A stretch of DNA of 47,903 nucleotides from an uncultured Bacteroidales bacterium (GTDB lineage Bacteria; Bacteroidota; Bacteroidia; Bacteroidales; Bacteroidaceae), in NCBI GenBank assembly GCA_902760965.1, contig CACWIN010000022.1, positions 1 through 47,903 of the forward strand. Reading direction: 5' to 3'. A program made the position numbers and the translations under genes. The notes beneath the pieces are model-generated. The model searched no databases. It was not told the origin of the DNA and worked only from the letters and a program-made list of their open reading frames with translations. This document shows positions 20,412 through 28,770 of this stretch, one piece after another. Positions within the stretch are counted from its first letter, which is position 1. Each line of letters begins with the position of its first letter.

Positions 20412-20477
20412 GGGGCATTAGCTCATCTGGCTAGAGCGTTTGACTGGCAGTCAAGAGGTGACGAGTTCGAGTCTCGT
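20412..20477 (+). tRNA. tRNA-Ala(GGC), 5' part; acceptor 3' strand displaced to 26745
   Basis: The bases form the 5' acceptor strand GGGGCAT, a D arm (GCTC/GAGC), an anticodon arm (TTTGA, loop CTGGCAG with anticodon GGC, TCAAG), a variable loop and a full T arm (ACGAG/TTCGAGT/CTCGT). The next seven bases should be ATGCTCC but are GTACTAA, which give two mismatches at the end of the stem, an internal C-A mismatch and two wobbles. The matching ATGCTCCA lies at 26745-26752. As it stands this tRNA cannot form a normal acceptor stem and is probably non-functional unless the 6.27 kb insert is lost. Confidence 0.9.
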
Positions 20478-20494
20478 GTACTAATATGTTACTA
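20472..20494 (+). other. Left junction (attL-like) of the insert in tRNA-Ala
   Basis: TCTCGT (20472-20477), the last bases of the T arm, is the stretch shared with the right junction at 26739-26744. It is followed by GTACTAATATGTTACTA, which resembles GGTACTAATATGGTACTAA at 26614-26632 near the right end. The crossover probably took place within TCTCGT. Confidence 0.7.
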
Positions 20495-20597
20495 TATTTT
20501 CCAGTGATGCCTTAAAATTTGCGGAATTGCAGGAAATAATCTTCCATCTGATTACAATAGATTATATCCACTTGTCTTTTTAGAACCCTTTCTAACA

Positions 20598-20633
20598 AAA
20601 ACTGCCAGTGCCCATACCGACACTGGCAGTTTT
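20598..20633 (-). terminator. Terminator after the first DUF4143 ATPase gene
   Basis: A perfect 13-bp stem (AAAACTGCCAGTG with CACTGGCAGTTTT), 42 bases past the ATPase stop; the T run is longer on the minus strand. A near-identical hairpin with related flanks is found at 26423-26459. Confidence 0.8.
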
Positions 20634-20674
20634 CATATCACCAGGTTATAATCCTAATATCCGCTGCTCACACT

Positions 20675-21988
20675 CTAATCTTTAAGACAGCCTACCGGTA
20701 CAACCAGCACGCCGTCTTCGGGGCGTTTGTATGCATAATCTCCTATTCCGGTCAGTACCATCAGGAAAGAAGGTTTCTTCATCCTGGTAGTGTCAATCTT
20801 GTCAGACAGATCCTTTAAACTCTTGGCACCGGCATTGATAAGGTCTGCACCGCCAATCTTGATTTCAACAAGTCCGTATGATCCGTTTCTTAGATGAACA
20901 ACGGCATCACACTCCAGATTATTCTTGTCGCGGTAATGATACACCTTACCATCCAACGCATCGGCATATACACGCAAGTCACGGACAGCAAGGGTCTCAA
21001 AAATGAGCCCAAATGTTTCCATGTCATTAATCAGGTCGTTAGGGCCCAATCCTAATGATGCGGTAGCAATGGACGGGTCAATGAAATAACGTGTATCCGA
21101 TGTGCGGATTGCAGTCTTGCTCCTAAGATTGGGATTCCATGCCACAGAGTCCTCTATGACAAAAATCTCCTTTAAAGCCTTTATGTAACTGTAAACGGTA
21201 CCGTCTGACATCTGCTCGTCTCCATTATTCCGGATATCTGCCAGTATGGTTCCGGCTGTCGCCTGACTACCTTGATTCCGGGCATAGGAACGCATAATCC
21301 GTTTTGCAAGTTCTTCATCGCGGTCAATATCATCAACACGCTTTATATCATTACTTACAACAGAGTCAAAGTAGTTAAACGCCTGGGCAAGAGCTGCCTT
21401 CACAGTCTTTTTCAACACAGCCTTGGGCCATCCGCCGCGACAGGTAAGATATGCCAGCCTGTCCAGATCTATATGACTCACTCCATCAATCTTATCTGCA
21501 TTGACAAAAAGATTCCCCAAACTCACATCGCCCGTAGAATCCCCTGACTCCCACAAAGACATTGTGCGTAGCTTAAGGCGTGATATGCGTCCTGTGCCGG
21601 TATGGAATATTTGCTCATCCCCAATACTGTTACCGATATCATCCTTACGGGCTTTACCAGGAACTGCTGAGCCGGTAAGCATAAACTGCCCGTCATCCTC
21701 ACGGTTATCAACTTCATTCCTTACAGCATCCCAAAACTGTGGGGCAATTTGCCATTCGTCTATAAGCCTGGGCGTCTCGCCCGCCAGGAGTCTGGAAATA
21801 TTTGTACGGGCAATAGCAAGATTCTGGCTGAGAGTATTCGGGTCCGCCATAGACAATACACTTTTGGCTTGCTGTTTTGCCAATGTAGTCTTCCCGCAGT
21901 ACTTTGGCCCTTCTATTAGAACTGCTCCAGATGACTCCAACTTATCAGTAAGCATCTGGTCTGCAATACGTTTTAAATATTCTGACAT
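20675..21988 (-). CDS. AAA ATPase with C-terminal DUF4143 domain (copy 1)
   Basis: From the ATG at 21988 the protein has 437 residues (MSEYLKRIADQML). Residues 22-38 carry the Walker A loop in IEGPKYCGKTT. Walker B is in ETPRLIDEWQ, and LTGSAVPG fits a sensor segment. The C-terminal half is DUF4143, with LECDAVVHLRNGSYGLVEIK, whose D...E-x-K pattern resembles a PD-(D/E)XK nuclease core. This family is widespread in Bacteroidales and its role is not established. The gene lies inside the insert that splits tRNA-Ala, has a good promoter, and is preceded by three 23-bp repeats. It is a paralogue of the ATPase at 26948-28234. Confidence 0.88.
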   Translation of the reverse strand: MSEYLKRIADQMLTDKLESSGAVLIEGPKYCGKTTLAKQQAKSVLSMADPNTLSQNLAIARTNISRLLAGETPRLIDEWQIAPQFWDAVRNEVDNREDDGQFMLTGSAVPGKARKDDIGNSIGDEQIFHTGTGRISRLKLRTMSLWESGDSTGDVSLGNLFVNADKIDGVSHIDLDRLAYLTCRGGWPKAVLKKTVKAALAQAFNYFDSVVSNDIKRVDDIDRDEELAKRIMRSYARNQGSQATAGTILADIRNNGDEQMSDGTVYSYIKALKEIFVIEDSVAWNPNLRSKTAIRTSDTRYFIDPSIATASLGLGPNDLINDMETFGLIFETLAVRDLRVYADALDGKVYHYRDKNNLECDAVVHLRNGSYGLVEIKIGGADLINAGAKSLKDLSDKIDTTRMKKPSFLMVLTGIGDYAYKRPEDGVLVVPVGCLKD

Positions 21989-22011
21989 ATTTTTAAAGGT
22001 AAAATTTGCAA

Positions 22012-22042
22012 CAAAAATAATACATTCCTCTCTGAAAATCAA
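22012..22042 (-). promoter_or_regulatory. Promoter of the first DUF4143 ATPase gene
   Basis: On the minus strand TTG (22042-22040), exactly 20 bases, then TATTTTTG (22019-22012), matching the consensus. The triple 23-bp repeat begins 19 bases further upstream. Confidence 0.75.
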
Positions 22043-22060
22043 TTATTTCAACAAAAATCC

Positions 22061-22129
22061 GATGCAACAGTTGGCCGGTTTTTGATGCGACAGTTGGCCG
22101 CTTTTTGATATGGCAGTTGGCTGCCAACA
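22061..22129. repeat. Three tandem 23-bp repeats upstream of ATPase copy 1
   Basis: Units at 22061-22083, 22084-22106 and 22107-22129 begin GATGCAACAGTTGGCCGG, GATGCGACAGTTGGCCGC and GATATGGCAGTTGGCTGC. They are joined by TTTTT after the first two, and the third is more diverged. They lie just beyond the -33 box of the ATPase promoter. They may be operator sites; alternatively, multiple short repeats with CATCAAAA-like cores (minus strand) recall the terminal repeats of IS21-family elements. Confidence 0.85.
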
Positions 22130-22268
22130 TCATCCACAAAACTAAACCCAAGAAAAAGCAACATCAAATCTTTGCAAGGTCTTCAAATCAAATTTATTTT
22201 TTTTCATTGTTTCAAAGACGCATTTTGAGTAATTTGCCGTCTTATTATAGGAAAGGCAGAATAGAGTG

Positions 22269-22844
22269 ATGAGTAAACCCTTTCTTTCTGAGAAAGAACT
22301 TGTGCAGGGGTGCATCCGCAGGGACCGTGATGCGCAACAGGAGCTGTATGCCCGTTATGCAGCCCGGCTCTATACGCTCTGTCTCAGATACATTGGTGAT
22401 ACTGAAGAGTCCCGTGACCTTATGCATGACTCCATGATAAAGGCTATGGACAGCATCAAGTCTTTCCGCAATGAAGCCGATGGTTCACTCTATCCATGGC
22501 TCCGTAAGATTACAGTCAACGTGGTATTTGACCGCTTCAGGCAAAACAGCAGGTTCATGGAGGTTCCTCTTGATACGGTGAGTGATAAGGAGATACTGGA
22601 TGCATCGGATTCCGATGCCGGACCTGAGCGTGAGATACCCGATGACGTGCTGAAACAGATAATGGCCAAACTTTCGCCCGTCAGGCGTGTGGTGTTCAAT
22701 ATGTACTACATAGACGGATTCAGCCACAAGGAGATAGCCCGGGCTTTGAACATAACCGAGAGCGGTTCAACATCCATTCTTGCCAAAGCCCGCGCCAGCG
22801 TGAGGAAAGCCATAACAGATTACCTTAAAGCAACAGGACAATGA
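22269..22844 (+). CDS. ECF-type RNA polymerase sigma factor
   Basis: A 191-residue sigma-70 family protein of the ECF group. Region 2 is at about 24-90, with LYTLCLRYIGDTEESRDLMHDSMIKAMDSIKSF and the -10 recognition segment WLRKITVNVVFDRFRQ. Region 4 is at about 128-180, with KLSPVRRVVFNMYYIDGFSHKEIARALNI and the helix-turn-helix continuation. No region 1.1 or 3 is present. A GTG one codon earlier is possible. It overlaps the downstream gene by 4 bases (ATGA), so sigma factor and membrane partner are translationally coupled, as is usual for sigma/anti-sigma pairs. It lies in the tRNA-splitting insert. Its targets are unknown. Confidence 0.9.
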   Translation: MSKPFLSEKELVQGCIRRDRDAQQELYARYAARLYTLCLRYIGDTEESRDLMHDSMIKAMDSIKSFRNEADGSLYPWLRKITVNVVFDRFRQNSRFMEVPLDTVSDKEILDASDSDAGPEREIPDDVLKQIMAKLSPVRRVVFNMYYIDGFSHKEIARALNITESGSTSILAKARASVRKAITDYLKATGQ

Positions 22845-23875
22845 AGGACTGGAGAGACAAAAGAATGATTGACTATCTGGAGGGCCTCAAAGTAGAGTTG
22901 CCGCAGTCTGACTGGGATGATTTCCTTTCCAGAAAGGCCGCTTATGATGTTGCCGCAAGGCGCCGCCGCCGGTTCCTGACCGTAGCCATATCCATTCCTG
23001 CCGCAGCTGCAGTCCTGCTGTTGCTGTTCCTGCTGCCAATAAACAGAACTCCCGCCGGACAGACCGCACAGAACAATCCTCATTCTCCACAAGAGGAACA
23101 GATGGCTACTACAGACAGCATATCCAATCCCGCTGACAGTGTCATGCTTGGCGGCATTCTTGCTGAGCCGGAACTAATTGAAAATAAAGTCGCAATGACG
23201 CCATCCATAACTCCTGTACGTATGTCCAATGATACCGTTTCATTTAATCATGACACTTACAGGCACCAGGTTGACACAATGTTAGCCCGGAATAACAAGA
23301 CCAAAGAAGAACTGGATAGTATCACGGCCGATATGATGGAGAGAGTCACGGCCTATGAACAGACAAAGGAAACGGAAAATGCTAATGTTAGAATGGGATC
23401 ATTAGAAATCACAACGGGTGCTACAAGCAATGGATCACTTTCAGAATCCAATCTTAACTTTGGAGGATTCGGAGGTTTTGGAGGCTTCGGTGGTTTTGGC
23501 GGTTCTGCCAATTATAATGTCGCAGGTGTTGATTATTATAAAGATTTTAATCAAAACGGTGATGATTCTATATCAATATATCCGTTGATACTCCTCGATG
23601 GTGAGATTATTTCTGTCGATGAAGCCAAACTGTCCACATTTGACTTTGGAGCGCCCATCCTTGACAGATATAAACTGGCTGATTTGTTAGGAATACGTGG
23701 TGACAAGATACAGGCAGTACAGAGATTGGATAATAAGGAGGCGGATAAAAAATGGGGTGATAAGGGTGCTGGCGGTTCCCTTGAGATACTTACCAGAAAG
23801 TACTATCGCAAGGCTCGTAAGGCCGGCAAACTGAGTGGTCACTATCAATGGGTGACAGACTTAAAAAACAGATGA
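22841..23875 (+). CDS. Putative anti-sigma protein with TonB-plug-like periplasmic domain
   Basis: A 344-residue single-span membrane protein. A charged cytosolic part (1-44, ending in five Arg) is followed by a helix (45-67), a Ser/Thr/Asn-rich stretch, a glycine repeat (208-222, GGF units) and a C-terminal domain (about 248-320). That domain contains IYPLILLDGEIISVDEA, LLGIRGDKIQAVQRLD and KGAGGSLEILTRK, closely resembling the plug of TonB-dependent receptors (usual pattern: VDG, then I..IEVLK, then GA.GVI.ITTK). The position after an ECF sigma gene, with ATGA overlap, suggests it holds the sigma factor and senses through the plug-like end. No classical zinc anti-sigma motif is seen, so the role is inferred from context. 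Confidence 0.65.
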   Translation: MKDWRDKRMIDYLEGLKVELPQSDWDDFLSRKAAYDVAARRRRRFLTVAISIPAAAAVLLLLFLLPINRTPAGQTAQNNPHSPQEEQMATTDSISNPADSVMLGGILAEPELIENKVAMTPSITPVRMSNDTVSFNHDTYRHQVDTMLARNNKTKEELDSITADMMERVTAYEQTKETENANVRMGSLEITTGATSNGSLSESNLNFGGFGGFGGFGGFGGSANYNVAGVDYYKDFNQNGDDSISIYPLILLDGEIISVDEAKLSTFDFGAPILDRYKLADLLGIRGDKIQAVQRLDNKEADKKWGDKGAGGSLEILTRKYYRKARKAGKLSGHYQWVTDLKNR

Positions 23876-23882
23876 AAAATTT

Positions 23883-23937
23883 CAACGATATTGCAACGCC
23901 TAATCCTTGGCAATTGTAAATATGAGAAATAATTTTG
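23883..23937 (+). promoter_or_regulatory. Promoter with upstream TTGCAACG-type repeat, first site
   Basis: TTG (23907-23909), 20 bases, then TAATTTTG (23930-23937) is a good promoter for the leucine-rich-repeat operon. Immediately upstream, CAACGATATTGCAACGCC (from 23883) is a direct repeat of (T)CAACG spaced by one helical turn. The same 22 bases, ending CCTAAT, stand in the same place before the promoter at 28769-28800. Confidence 0.75.
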
Positions 23938-23960
23938 CCAGCAAACAAATTGCTTGAGCT

Positions 23961-25070
23961 ATGAAAATAAGAAAGATTAAAATGGAGCTTTTACGTGGTT
24001 GGTACTACGTTTCTTGTGGCGTGATGTTTTTGTCATTCCCGTCTTCTGCATCAGGAGACTCTATAGTAAAGCACACCATTGATCCCTTCCATTTTGAAAA
24101 GGGCATCTATGTTATTAGCAGCGATTCAATCTTTGAACGCGATGAGCATGACGGGCTAATGTTCAGGATTCTATCGGAAAAAGAAGTGGAGTTTGCCGAT
24201 TACCGTAACGACACCATCAGGTTTGATAGGCTTGTTATACCGGAACGAGTGTCCATAAAGGACCGGCAGTATGATGTTGTGGGTATAGGCGAAGGTTGCT
24301 TGTCCAGAAATTATCATGACCTTATGCTTAGAGCCTATAATCCAGATACCGCAATTTCATACTTCGGGCCGTCTTATTTATACTTACCGTCATCGGTCAG
24401 ATACATATCGGATGGAGCTTTTTGCGACTGTGTGAACCTTAAGACCGTTATCTTGAATGAAGGGCTGGACTCTATAGGTTATGCTTTCTGGGGATGTGGA
24501 ATAACTGATATCCATATACCGTCAAGCGTAAGACACATAGAGGAAATGGGCGCATTTGAGAACTGCATGTCTTTAAAGAATATAACCGTAAGTGCGGACA
24601 ATCCTGTCTATGACTCCCGAGGCGGTTGCAACGCTGTAATTGATACAAAGAAAGAATATATGTTCATTACCTGTCAATGGACTGAATTCCCCGATGATGT
24701 AAAGAGGATAAAGATAACCAATAATGTTCCAAAGGTCAAACTGGGTAGTAAAAGCCAGTGTAAAAGCCTGCATGTAAATACATACACTCCAAAAACAATT
24801 AACACAAGAAGAAGCAATGCCTTGAAACGCTTAGGCATCAGTTTTAATTCTGAATCAAAGGCAATAAAGATTAAAAGAGTAACTCTGCCTCCGGGCCTGG
24901 ATTACCTTTCTGAATCAAGAATAGATCCTGACAGGATAAAAGGAAGAATAATGAAAAAGAGCGGATTGTTCAGTATGGATGAACGTTACACCGAAACAAG
25001 GAGTTACAATCCCGACGCTCAGCTACTTATTATAAGCATAGAAAGGAAAGACAAGGACCAACGAGATTAG
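23961..25070 (+). CDS. BspA-like leucine-rich-repeat (LRR_5) secreted protein
   Basis: A 369-residue exported protein. The N-terminus MKIRKIKMELLRGWYYVSC plus a hydrophobic stretch to about residue 32 serves as signal. Then come LRR_5-type strands: VIPERVSIKDRQYDVVGIG, LYLPSSVRYISDGAFCDCV, LKTVILNEGLDSIGYAFWGC, DIHIPSSVRHIEEMGAFENC, LKNITVSADNPVYDSRGG. These are the repeats of BspA surface proteins, which bind host or other surface ligands in some species. The C-terminal 130 residues are basic and without known domain. It is the first gene of an operon with the regulatory-domain protein 15 bases downstream. Its N-terminal RGWY motif recurs there. Confidence 0.8.
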   Translation: MKIRKIKMELLRGWYYVSCGVMFLSFPSSASGDSIVKHTIDPFHFEKGIYVISSDSIFERDEHDGLMFRILSEKEVEFADYRNDTIRFDRLVIPERVSIKDRQYDVVGIGEGCLSRNYHDLMLRAYNPDTAISYFGPSYLYLPSSVRYISDGAFCDCVNLKTVILNEGLDSIGYAFWGCGITDIHIPSSVRHIEEMGAFENCMSLKNITVSADNPVYDSRGGCNAVIDTKKEYMFITCQWTEFPDDVKRIKITNNVPKVKLGSKSQCKSLHVNTYTPKTINTRRSNALKRLGISFNSESKAIKIKRVTLPPGLDYLSESRIDPDRIKGRIMKKSGLFSMDERYTETRSYNPDAQLLIISIERKDKDQRD

Positions 25071-25084
25071 ATACTAAATTTGAT

Positions 25085-26305
25085 ATGAAAATACATAGAA
25101 TCAGAATCTGGCTTTCCCGCGGTTGGTACCGCACACTATGTAGCATATCCCTGCTGTTGCTGCCTCTTTTTTGCAATACCGGCAGGACCTTCGCTGCAAT
25201 CAACCATGTTCAGCAGGATACTATCAAGTCAACCGTTGTGGTGTCTGGCACTAAGCCCCAAGCGGGTGATATTATAAGCGGTACAATCTGTGATGAAAAC
25301 GGTCCAATGCAATTGGTTAACATTACAGAGAGAGATTCTCTTTACCGTATTGTTGCTCATGCTGTTTCTGATGTGAACGGTAAATTCGCTTTCAAACTCG
25401 TTAATCCGGCCAACCGTCTTTCTGTAACCTATGTGGGATATGGTGAGGCTATAACTGCTATTACCGGTACATCCTTTGATGTTACAATGGTTGAATTGCC
25501 AGACCTTCCTGTGGTTGATTTGAGCAGTGACGTAAAACAGACTACAATGTATGGCCCTCCAGCAGTGAACTACAACAGATACTATGATCCCAATGCACAA
25601 CCAGCCGTTAGGGATTTTATAGAAATAGGCGCACGCACTCCTGATGTCAGCGTAATATATGGTGTTCCCGTAAACAGGTTCTTTGTTTCAGACAACCCCC
25701 AAACAGCTAAGGTACTTGAAGACGGCACCATTACCGTAGATGGCAAGAAAATTACAAATCATAATTTTAATTTCCCTAATCCTAGTGCCGTTGATTCTAT
25801 TGTCAATATGCACGGTAAGGAAGTAAAGCAGGAAACTCGCGCCATTAGTCCAAAAGACCGTGGGCTTGTCACAAATGATAATTATTTGGCTCAGTTGCTT
25901 GAATATGCACCCGAAGGTCTTGTTTGCGGATATATTATGCGTAATGCATGGAGAAAGAACCTATGGGGTATATTCCTTGTAAAGGAGAAAAAACAATACA
26001 GCCTGGTTTATAAGGAAGAAGATAAGGTACAGAAAAGGAAGATAAAGTCTGATCAGGCAACCATTCTGGAGGCATCGGTCAACACCCGAATCTCCAAGAT
26101 TGAATTTGATATAAACAATCCCGCTTTCACAGAGGTTTATGGCGGATCACTAGAAATAGGCATGGTTTATGACGGTGATATAGTCTTTGCTGTCACTCCC
26201 TCTAAGGCAGCTCATTTCTGGGCTTTGAATGGTCATGAATACATTGGTATAAATGATGAATTCTGGCAGGCAGAGGTTGACCAGTTCAAGCAGGAAACCA
26301 AATAG
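25085..26305 (+). CDS. Exported carboxypeptidase-regulatory-like domain protein (copy 1)
   Basis: A 406-residue exported protein; residues 1-38 (MKIHRIRIWLSRGWYRTLC plus a hydrophobic run) act as signal. Residues about 58-140 are a CarboxypepD_reg-like beta-sandwich (AGDIISGTICDENGPMQLVN, VSDVNGKFAFKLVNP, VTYVGYGEA), the domain that precedes the plug in SusC-like receptors. A middle part holds a plug-like LEDGTITVDGKKITN. The C-terminal 150 residues (VCGYIMRNAWRKNLWGIFLV, KKQYSLVYKEED, FAVTPSKAAHFWALNG) are shared with the protein at 28819. There is no barrel. It is co-transcribed with the leucine-rich-repeat gene. Its function is unknown. Confidence 0.72.
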   Translation: MKIHRIRIWLSRGWYRTLCSISLLLLPLFCNTGRTFAAINHVQQDTIKSTVVVSGTKPQAGDIISGTICDENGPMQLVNITERDSLYRIVAHAVSDVNGKFAFKLVNPANRLSVTYVGYGEAITAITGTSFDVTMVELPDLPVVDLSSDVKQTTMYGPPAVNYNRYYDPNAQPAVRDFIEIGARTPDVSVIYGVPVNRFFVSDNPQTAKVLEDGTITVDGKKITNHNFNFPNPSAVDSIVNMHGKEVKQETRAISPKDRGLVTNDNYLAQLLEYAPEGLVCGYIMRNAWRKNLWGIFLVKEKKQYSLVYKEEDKVQKRKIKSDQATILEASVNTRISKIEFDINNPAFTEVYGGSLEIGMVYDGDIVFAVTPSKAAHFWALNGHEYIGINDEFWQAEVDQFKQETK

Positions 26306-26422
26306 GTAACTTCGTACCATCAATACTGAAAGCAATATCGGTAGTAACAATACTCATCTTAATTGCCCTGTTCTGCAAGCCATCAAAATAAGAATGAAGA
26401 TTATATCTCTCCTTCTAGCAAC

Positions 26423-26459
26423 AAAACTGCCAGTGCCCACAAAAGACACTGGCAGTTTT
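26423..26459. terminator. Hairpin duplicated from the ATPase 1 3' flank
   Basis: AAAACTGCCAGTG and CACTGGCAGTTTT form the same 13-bp stem as at 20598-20633. The flanking bases on the minus strand (GATTAGG...CCTGGT before it, GTT after it) are also alike. It would terminate the plus-strand operon ending at 26305 as well as minus-strand transcripts. Confidence 0.75.
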
Positions 26460-26479
26460 CACATTACCAGGCCAGAACC

Positions 26480-26629
26480 CTAATCCTCATCCGGCTCAAT
26501 CTCCTCCAAATAAACCATCAGGTCCAAATCCTCATAAACGTTAATATCCCTGTAGTCGCTGTCAAAATGTGGAATATAATTTCCTGTTCGTAGATACAAT
26601 AGATATTGGAACGTGGTACTAATATGGTA
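26480..26629 (-). pseudogene. C-terminal fragment of an unrecognised protein
   Basis: On the minus strand 49 codons run from an in-frame stop at 26630-26632 to a TAG, without a start codon. They include FQYLLYLRTGNYIPHFDSDY and an acidic end (LEEIEPDED). The composition looks protein-like. The bases after its stop match those after ATPase copy 1, so it may be the tail of a gene otherwise lost. The family was not recognised, and it could also be chance. Confidence 0.35.
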
Positions 26630-26738
26630 CTAATAATTTCCTAATCCCTCGGAAACACTCGGAATACGTTTTTGTGGATTTCTATCAATATCAACAACTT
26701 AACCCCATTTTTTATTCCTATAGTTTCCTGCCAAATGT

Positions 26739-26752
26739 TCTCGTATGCTCCA
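26739..26752 (+). tRNA. Displaced 3' end of tRNA-Ala (right junction of the insert)
   Basis: TCTCGT followed by ATGCTCCA. The seven bases ATGCTCC pair with the GGGGCAT acceptor strand at 20412-20418 (six Watson-Crick pairs and one G.U), and A is the discriminator base. Joined at TCTCGT to the 5' part, they give a complete tRNA-Ala(GGC) without an encoded CCA. A terminator follows at once, as expected for the end of a tRNA gene. Confidence 0.85.
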
Positions 26753-26757
26753 CATGC

Positions 26758-26784
26758 AAAAAGGTCGCCGATGGCGGCCTTTTT
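26758..26784 (+). terminator. Original terminator of the tRNA-Ala gene
   Basis: AAAAAGGTCGCC, loop GAT, GGCGGCCTTTTT: a 12-bp stem with one G.U pair and a T run, 5 bases after the displaced tRNA end. ATGCTCCACAT (26745-26755) and its exact complement ATGTGGAGCAT (26787-26797) extend it, so the tRNA 3' end could be drawn into the same stem. Confidence 0.85.
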
Positions 26785-26947
26785 GTATGTGGAGCATGTG
26801 CGACCTTGTTTTATTTTGCTTCGCAAAAGCGCTCGTTACACTCGCTTGGCGGCCCTCCGGGACCGCTCTCACCCTCCGGGTTCGCCCCAATACGTTCAAA
26901 CCTGCGTTTCTTAGCGGTACCAAATCGGCACCAAATGCTGCTCCTGT

Positions 26948-28234
26948 TTACCATTTCAAGCATCCTAGCGGGATGATCTTGACCCCATCGGGGCGTGTAT
27001 ATGCATATTCCCCGCCTGTAATAACCATAAGCAGGTCTGGTTCTCTCAGTGGCACCTGCTTTTCATTCTCGTTATGTTCCCTAATCAGACGGACTATCTC
27101 TTTCAGATGGGTGGCACCGTCTTCAATCTCATCACTACCCAGTTTGCATTCAATCAGGGCATATCGGCCGTCCTCCAGATGCAGCACAATGTCAGCCTCC
27201 AGTCCGTAACGATCACGGTAATGTGATATCTCTCCTCCCAGATGTGCCGAATACACCTTCAAGTCTCTTGCGCACATACATTCAAAAATAAATCCGAAAG
27301 TCTTGAGCTGTGTCATCAGTTGGGCTGGTCCCAAACCCAATGATGCAACAGCAACTGACGGGTCGCAGAAACTGCGTTTCTCACCACTCCTGATTGCTGT
27401 CTTTGACCTGATTGATGGGTTCCAGGCGCTTATGTCCTGGATAACATAAAGTTTCTCAAGTGCTGCTACATATCTGTCAAAAGTACTGCGTACCAGAGAG
27501 TCGTTATTTGCAGTAACATCAGCAAGAATGGTGGATTTGTCGGCCAATGAAGATACGTTTCTGGCGTATGAACGCAGTATCGCCTTGGCAATCTTAGGAT
27601 CCAGTTTCTCCTTGGCGGCCCTTGATATATCCTTGTCGCATACCGTTTTCACATAGTTTTTGGCAATCAGCAGTTTGCCTTTATCTGAAACTGGCTGTAG
27701 TGCTGCAGGCCATCCTCCGCGGCATGCTGCAAATATGATATCCTCAACACTCATTCTGGAGCGTGCGGCTATATCCATTTCTGGATCATTAAACAAGGCC
27801 TCTACAGATATATCTCCTGTTGACTCTCCAGACTCAAACAGGCTCATAGGATACATTGTAAGGCCAGCAATACGGCCGGTGCCGGTATGCGCGGTTTTAT
27901 CTGTATCTGCAGCTGATGATCCGGTCAGAATAAACTGCGATGGTTTCTGCCTGCGGTCGCAAGCTACCCTTACCGCATCCCAAAGTGCAGGAGCATCCTG
28001 CCACTCATCTATCAGTCGTGGAGTCTCACCTTCAAGCAGCAGTGATGCTTTGGTAAGCGCCGTAGCAAGGTACTCATCTCTCTTGTCCGTATCCTGTAAT
28101 TCTATGATACTGGCTGCCTTCTGCTTGGCAGTAGTCGTCTTGCCACACCATTTAGGTCCCTCAATATTCACTGCGCCGAAAGCATCCAGGTAATCCTGCA
28201 GCTGGTCATCAATCGCTCTTTTAAGGTAATCCAT
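26948..28234 (-). CDS. AAA ATPase with C-terminal DUF4143 domain (copy 2)
   Basis: A 428-residue paralogue of the ATPase at 20675. It opens MDYLKRAIDDQLQDYLDAFG, with Walker A in IEGPKWCGKTTTAKQ, Walker B in ETPRLIDEWQDAP, the LTGSSAADTDKT sensor segment, PMSLFESGESTGDIS, and a DUF4143 half ending DGVKIIPLGCLKW. The nuclease-like D...E-x-K triad is in LEADIVLHLEDGRYALIECK. It lies just outside the tRNA insert, in the same orientation as copy 1, and has its own set of three 23-bp repeats ahead of its promoter. Conservation of both ATPase and nuclease-like motifs in both copies argues that each is active. The biological role is not known. Confidence 0.88.
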   Translation of the reverse strand: MDYLKRAIDDQLQDYLDAFGAVNIEGPKWCGKTTTAKQKAASIIELQDTDKRDEYLATALTKASLLLEGETPRLIDEWQDAPALWDAVRVACDRRQKPSQFILTGSSAADTDKTAHTGTGRIAGLTMYPMSLFESGESTGDISVEALFNDPEMDIAARSRMSVEDIIFAACRGGWPAALQPVSDKGKLLIAKNYVKTVCDKDISRAAKEKLDPKIAKAILRSYARNVSSLADKSTILADVTANNDSLVRSTFDRYVAALEKLYVIQDISAWNPSIRSKTAIRSGEKRSFCDPSVAVASLGLGPAQLMTQLKTFGFIFECMCARDLKVYSAHLGGEISHYRDRYGLEADIVLHLEDGRYALIECKLGSDEIEDGATHLKEIVRLIREHNENEKQVPLREPDLLMVITGGEYAYTRPDGVKIIPLGCLKW

Positions 28235-28288: not shown

Positions 28289-28300
28289 TATTTTTTGCTT

Positions 28301-28369
28301 TTTCATCGGTAACATTTGTGGCGTTTCATCGGTAACATTTGTGGTATTTCATCGGTAACATTTGCGGTA
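28301..28369. repeat. Three tandem 23-bp repeats upstream of ATPase copy 2
   Basis: Units at 28301-28323, 28324-28346 and 28347-28369 share TTTCATCGGTAACATTTG and end TGGCG, TGGTA and CGGTA. The unit length (23) and number (three) equal those before ATPase copy 1, but the sequence differs. A role as operator or as remnant transposon-end repeats is possible. Confidence 0.88.
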
Positions 28370-28446: not shown

Positions 28447-28770
28447 TCAAAATACCATAATAACAAATGCAACAGAAATCCTGCACTGCCGCCCAGTCAT
28501 CTGGCTGTGATACCTTGTAATAACCTCATCCCCAACAGAGCTGCTTGCATCAAACACAATCTCTCCTCTGTTAAAAGTCACCGCCACCGTTACGGCAGGC
28601 CGATATAACTCCGCACGCACTATCATCAATGGTAAACTCCCTGCTTACCACAAGCTTCGCATCGTTGGTCTTTGTCCTTTTCTCTGTCATATCAAGTAAG
28701 ATTGAATCAACACAAAGATGTCGTTTTTTACTTAAAATGTCTTGCAACGATATTGCAACGCCTAATTGTT
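28447..28770 (-). pseudogene. Possible broken gene upstream of the second regulatory-domain operon
   Basis: Two adjoining minus-strand frames, one ending near 28571 (DAKLVVSREFTIDDSACGV) and one from 28629 (RPAVTVAVTFNRGEIVFDA), overlap by about 58 bases and would join with one frameshift. No domain was recognised, and a chance origin is not excluded. Confidence 0.25.

Follow-up and report, generated by a model that had tools for sequence, protein, structure and literature searches.

An integrated element of 6.27 kb that carries no integrase is present in the tRNA-Ala(GGC) gene of an uncultured Bacteroidales bacterium, and the broken acceptor strand of that gene is likeliest to be an assembly mis-join; the two statements taken together are given a probability of roughly 0.6. 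The window, by which is meant the whole stretch of DNA that was analysed (47,903 nt), is one entire contig of a draft genome that comprises 93 contigs and is 81% complete. Elements of this kind occupy the 3′ end of the tRNA (the shared stretch being TCTCGTATGCTCCAC) and supply a 3′ end and a terminator of their own, by which the tRNA is kept whole, as is seen in relatives. The element may have been moved by a tyrosine recombinase acting in trans. The absent acceptor strand would be a separate matter from integration, namely the loss of 57 nt at the left junction, where a short tRNA that is letter-for-letter common to sister species was probably mis-joined during metagenome assembly.

As assembled, the tRNA-Ala(GGC) gene (20412..20477, + strand) runs from its 5′ end through the whole T arm and lacks the 3′ acceptor strand, its body being followed by GTACTAATATG where ATGCTCC is expected. 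A core repeat of 6 bp, TCTCGT, is found on both sides of the insert, with the left copy at 20472..20477 and the right copy at 26739..26744 (both + strand). The displaced 3′ end of the tRNA, ATGCTCCA (26745..26752, + strand), comes directly after the right copy and passes straight into a terminator-like hairpin (26745..26797, + strand) that belongs to the original tRNA; the identical sequence is found after the intact tRNA of a related genome, G002. The insert itself comprises positions 20478-26744 (6,267 nt). The Rfam tRNA model aligns with the window's tRNA-Ala at model positions 8-63 only (35.7 bits), and ARAGORN still calls a 74-nt tRNA-Ala at the site as assembled; when the flanks are joined at TCTCGT, it calls a whole tRNA-Ala(GGC) of 75 nt. 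The description given in the sequence-only reading, of a tRNA-Ala(GGC) split by an insert of about 6.27 kb, left without its acceptor strand, flanked by a shared TCTCGT and made whole by joining at that repeat, is thus upheld.

The empty site, which that reading had proposed to seek in relatives, was found in several of them, including G002, where an uninterrupted tRNA is followed by the right flank of the window (99.2% identity over a 239-nt local alignment; 387 nt were compared and the remainder is unaligned). The upstream neighbour of the site, ruvC, is present in 34 of the 36 other genomes of the genus that were searched. Thirty ruvC loci were fetched, one per genome and including that of the window, and the tRNA could be read with a strict pattern in 25; the window is the sole one of these at which tRNA-Ala is not whole. 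Among the five unread loci, one leaves its contig within the tRNA, one has a whole but diverged tRNA, and three have none in the stretch fetched. An intact tRNA at this place in relatives had earlier been named as telling against the insert, provided that no insert-related variation accompanied it: the intact tRNA is indeed the rule (24 of 25 readable loci), but insert-related variation exists too, such that only the first part of this expectation stood. When the T-arm pattern followed by any base but A was used for searching, matches were obtained in 31 of 37 genomes, with G in the window's match only; the match in G026 has C and is part of tRNA-Gly(CCC), and the remaining matches have T and in this draft, where the identity was read, correspond to tRNA-Gly(GCC).

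Elements of the same kind have been found in other genomes of the genus, with core-to-core lengths of 5,687 nt in G011, 5,866 nt in G017 and 4,049 nt in G008. In these three genomes the tRNA is whole: after its TCTCGT come ATGCTCCAC and then a terminator and repeats that belong to the element. The old tRNA 3′ end is found at the far end of the element after CCAAATGTTCTCGT (with one letter changed in G017). In G009 a whole tRNA is present together with the left end; the contig ends 378 nt on, and the right end is found on a separate contig. With up to three mismatches allowed, the right end is found in eight of 37 genomes and the left end in five of 37, the window's genome being counted in both, and two of the left-end matches extend over 50 nt only and lie away from any tRNA. 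Positions 20598-22345 of the window match the G011 element at 98.8% DNA identity over 1,748 nt, whereas the flanking genes of the two genomes are 83 to 89% identical, a difference that favours recent transfer. Little cargo DNA is common to the window and either G017 or G008. No viral contig matched either element end by exact pattern, seven plasmid records were returned from PLSDB (in the best five of the seven, the best places cover 17 to 21% of the query, approximately the length of a tRNA), and no autonomous or partner element with these ends was identified.

The left end of the window element (20478..20602, + strand) opens with the repeat GTACTAATATG, a putative arm-type site, and the right end (26591..26744, + strand) contains GGTACTAATATGGTACTAATA repeats and CCAAATGTTCTCGT. 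Between them lie five cargo genes. The first encodes an AAA_14/DUF4143 ATPase (20675..22042, − strand) and the second an ECF sigma factor (22266..22844, + strand), both assigned by Pfam. The ECF sigma gene is overlapped by a gene (22841..23875, + strand) for a putative anti-sigma protein, in which a hydrophobic stretch was noted by eye and no Pfam or NCBIfam family was found above cut-off. The last two genes encode proteins with signal-like starts, namely a BspA-type LRR_5 protein (23961..25070, + strand) and a protein with a sub-threshold CarboxypepD_reg-like match (25085..26305, + strand). Transfer genes were judged by Pfam on these five cargo proteins only. The earlier statement that no integrase lies in the insert agrees with the absence of a Pfam integrase match among the five proteins and of any PF00589 gene on the window contig. 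The draft has three PF00589 genes, all on other contigs; over 37 genomes, none was found inside the elements of the window, G008, G011 and G017, and a tblastn search of the elements with the three integrases of the draft gave only a 23-aa match (E 0.58) in G011. The three integrase loci (L100, L101 and L102) and the locus L123 do not contain the arm or core strings of the element. A candidate integrase just to the right of the site (26948-28234) was rejected, as it was identified by Pfam as a second DUF4143 ATPase.

Several known systems resemble this element in part. Cis-mobilizable elements (CIMEs) are described in PMC5704250 as elements that have lost their integration and transfer genes and kept attL and attR. 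The window element is like a CIME of that description in having att-like ends at a tRNA gene, in its lack of an integrase and in being stacked beside other accessory DNA; it differs in that its kind is found in several species with varying cargo and shares a 98.8%-identical piece, so may still be mobilised. Set against that description, its ends recur and it has no integrase, and its left junction is incomplete as assembled. Integrative elements that target tRNA genes leave one partial and one complete copy of the tRNA, and partial copies are common, according to the account in PMC9897764. As in that account, the tRNA 3′ end is present again at the far end of the window element, and the element in relatives supplies a restoring end; unlike the elements described there, the window copy lacks the restoring 57 nt and an integrase. 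Of the features by which tRNA-integrating elements are recognized, insertion in the 3′ part of a tRNA with a repeated core is seen here (TCTCGT on both sides, with the empty site in G002 and others), and a tyrosine recombinase encoded by the window element is not. Hitcher elements, in the description given in PMC11389934, require helpers; the window element would likewise need a helper to move, and in contrast to hitchers as described there no helper for it was found. It adds to this uncultured Bacteroidales genus a small, integrase-less kind of element that targets tRNA-Ala and carries a varying cargo of secreted proteins and ATPases.

When the left junction was compared with that of G009, the left 125 nt were found to be identical, but 57 nt are absent from the window, comprising the acceptor strand, the terminator and the seven letters TCTCGTG ahead of GTACTAA. 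In comparison with G011, 57 nt are absent too, between TCTCGT and GTACTAA. Since its left end is identical to that of a restoring copy save for these 57 nt, the window element is of the tRNA-restoring kind with the restoring piece missing. The sequence-only reading had taken the element for one that fails to restore its tRNA, and this does not hold for the kind: the 3′ end is restored in G008, G009, G011 and G017, and the window as assembled lacks exactly the 57 nt that restore it. The window junction as assembled would fit an element type that invariably inactivates its target and never bears a tRNA 3′ end. Such a type is very unlikely: in copies that do bear the 3′ end, the left end shows 100% (G009) and 98% (G011) identity to that of the window, and G008 and G017 bear one too. 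The suggestion that excision and reinsertion of the element switch the tRNA on and off found no evidence in its favour beyond the direct core repeats and recurring ends, and is highly improbable: in the four sibling genomes the tRNA is whole with the element integrated, hence excision would switch nothing, and no recombinase gene adjoins, the three PF00589 genes lying elsewhere in the draft. It is no more credible that the restoring cap (tRNA end and terminator, 50 nt), which in G009 is bracketed by two TCTCGT cores, could be excised by a recombinase, reversibly killing a working tRNA-Ala that carries the element, with the window representing a population in which the cap is off. An assembly chimera comprising the whole insert would be in keeping with a 93-contig draft where tRNA genes frequently lie at the ends of contigs; it is nonetheless hardly tenable when both ends are found again at this tRNA in G011, with an identical core, and related right ends are found there in G008 and G017.

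The tRNA-Ala(GGC) gene is one of three damaged tRNAs in the draft. The acceptor strand of tRNA-Lys(UUU), on contig 3, is absent along with a portion of the terminator, approximately 27 nt by eye in comparison with G017 and G029. When this tRNA was searched for, 34 of 37 genomes yielded 39 match rows between them; of 20 loci fetched 18 are whole by exact string, one has a single letter changed where the locus ends, and that of the draft alone is broken. The tRNA-Gly(UCC) gene on contig 16 belongs to an ordinary cluster of tRNAs without an adjoining element; 23 nt are absent from it, beginning in its T loop and reaching into the spacer that separates it from tRNA-Thr. Among 19 loci, this gene is present in 17 and whole in 15; the two broken copies are those of the draft and G012, and at the other two loci the contig stops too soon. 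Each of the 43 tRNA matches in the draft was examined with ARAGORN, and they include no whole Lys(UUU), Gly(UCC) or Ala gene; as the draft is 81% complete, other copies of the damaged tRNAs may sit in the missing fifth. The tRNA-Ala(UGC) gene often adjoins 16S rRNA. A 16S rRNA gene was not found in the draft when 15 of 30 candidates were scored, and was found in one of 12 genomes. In ten genes of the window, AAA is used 106 times and GGA 63 times in 5,348 codons, so that a cell could hardly be expected to do without tRNA-Lys(UUU) and tRNA-Gly(UCC). Contig ends lie no more than 30 nt away from six of the 43 tRNA matches and no more than 300 nt from 12, whereas random placement of ends predicts 0.11 and 1.04; tRNAs are thus break points of this assembly.

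Assembly error is ranked as the likeliest cause of the break in tRNA-Ala, with a real deletion second, because the same draft holds two further clipped tRNAs, one of which, Gly(UCC), is without an element, and because tRNAs are break points. Against an assembly error, such a junction could arise only from a scaffolding step or from chimeric k-mers, the Ala and Lys genes, two of the three that are damaged, are at element-like junctions, as with a biological cause, and the window's is the only broken one among 25 readable tRNA-Ala loci. A real deletion after integration, which is possible and distinctly the less probable of the two, would have removed the restoring 3′ end by slipped replication from the TCTCGT of the tRNA to a second TCTCGT just within the left end, across the intervening terminator hairpin; the tRNA would now be a pseudogene, tolerated as tRNA-Ala(UGC) reads its codons. 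The left end of G009 does have a second TCTCGT, 50 nt past that of the tRNA and just ahead of GGTACTAA, and short direct repeats that flank a hairpin are a classic setting for deletion. The product expected from G009 would, however, be TCTCGTGGTACTAA, of which the window is one G short, and slippage leaves unexplained the losses in Lys(UUU) and in Gly(UCC), which no element adjoins.

If the break in tRNA-Ala is an assembly mis-join, as preferred here, it serves as a warning that, where co-occurring species have identical tRNA genes, metagenome drafts may contain clipped copies that mimic split, switched or missing tRNAs. Among the papers listed by a narrow literature search, none deals with the clipping of tRNAs in such drafts or with this element. 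Similar tRNA deletions are present in two other drafts of the genus, namely G012, in the tRNA-Gly(UCC) mentioned above, and G015, in which tRNA-Thr(GGT) lacks 35 internal nt.

The hairpin at 26745-26797, downstream of the insert in tRNA-Ala(GGC), includes the 3' acceptor strand of the tRNA itself, with ATGCTCCACAT paired with ATGTGGAGCAT. A matching GGAGCA lies within 90 nt of tRNA-Ala in 11 of 26 printed regions (a set that includes the insert side of the window), with letters changed on both arms. Directly past the tRNA-Ala site there is a second DUF4143 ATPase gene (26948-28234), and upstream of this gene a repeat is found three times, spaced 23 nt, at 28292-28367. The tail of the DUF4143 gene carried by the insert itself was also found in another genome of the genus, G021, where a 389-nt copy (locus L077; 99.7% identity) reaches the contig end and adjoins a whole tRNA-Ala with its own terminator.

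Among the cargo proteins a similar N-terminal start (MKIRRIRIWLSRGWYR-like) is common to proteins with differing bodies, namely the products of the genes at 23961 and 25085 of the window and those of the elements in two loci fetched from the genus, L063 and L069. The window also contains two copies of a 24-nt motif, TGCAACGATATTGCAACGCCTAAT, at 23881-23904 and 28743-28766, positioned 56 and 52 nt, respectively, upstream of secreted-type protein genes; the motif was found in none of 100 shuffles, and its core is present in the fetched locus L061 too.

Elsewhere in the genus, the element's left end, together with its 3'-end piece, is found 3' of an open reading frame, not of a tRNA, in G021 contig 15 (L132) and G019 contig 38 (L133). 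A run of three tyrosine recombinase genes is located at 50997-53414 of G016 contig 8, approximately 5 kb beyond ruvC and tRNA-Ala.

Other tRNA genes are also clipped. On contig 3 of G000, the draft genome that holds the window, tRNA-Lys(UUU) is truncated 3' of the T arm (63860-63949; L010:3861-3950), whereas it is whole in the fetched relatives, and the truncated copy is followed on its 3' side by GTACCA repeats like those of an element end. On G000 contig 16, tRNA-Gly(UCC) (L011:550-610, minus strand) is missing 23 nt and reads on into tRNA-Thr; a similar deletion, of 24 nt, is found in G012 (L177), and the tRNA-Thr(GGT) of G015 (L170) has an internal deletion of 35 nt. In 6 of 43 cases in G000, on contigs 26, 35, 47, 68, 73 and 81, the distance from a tRNA gene to the end of its contig is no more than 30 nt.
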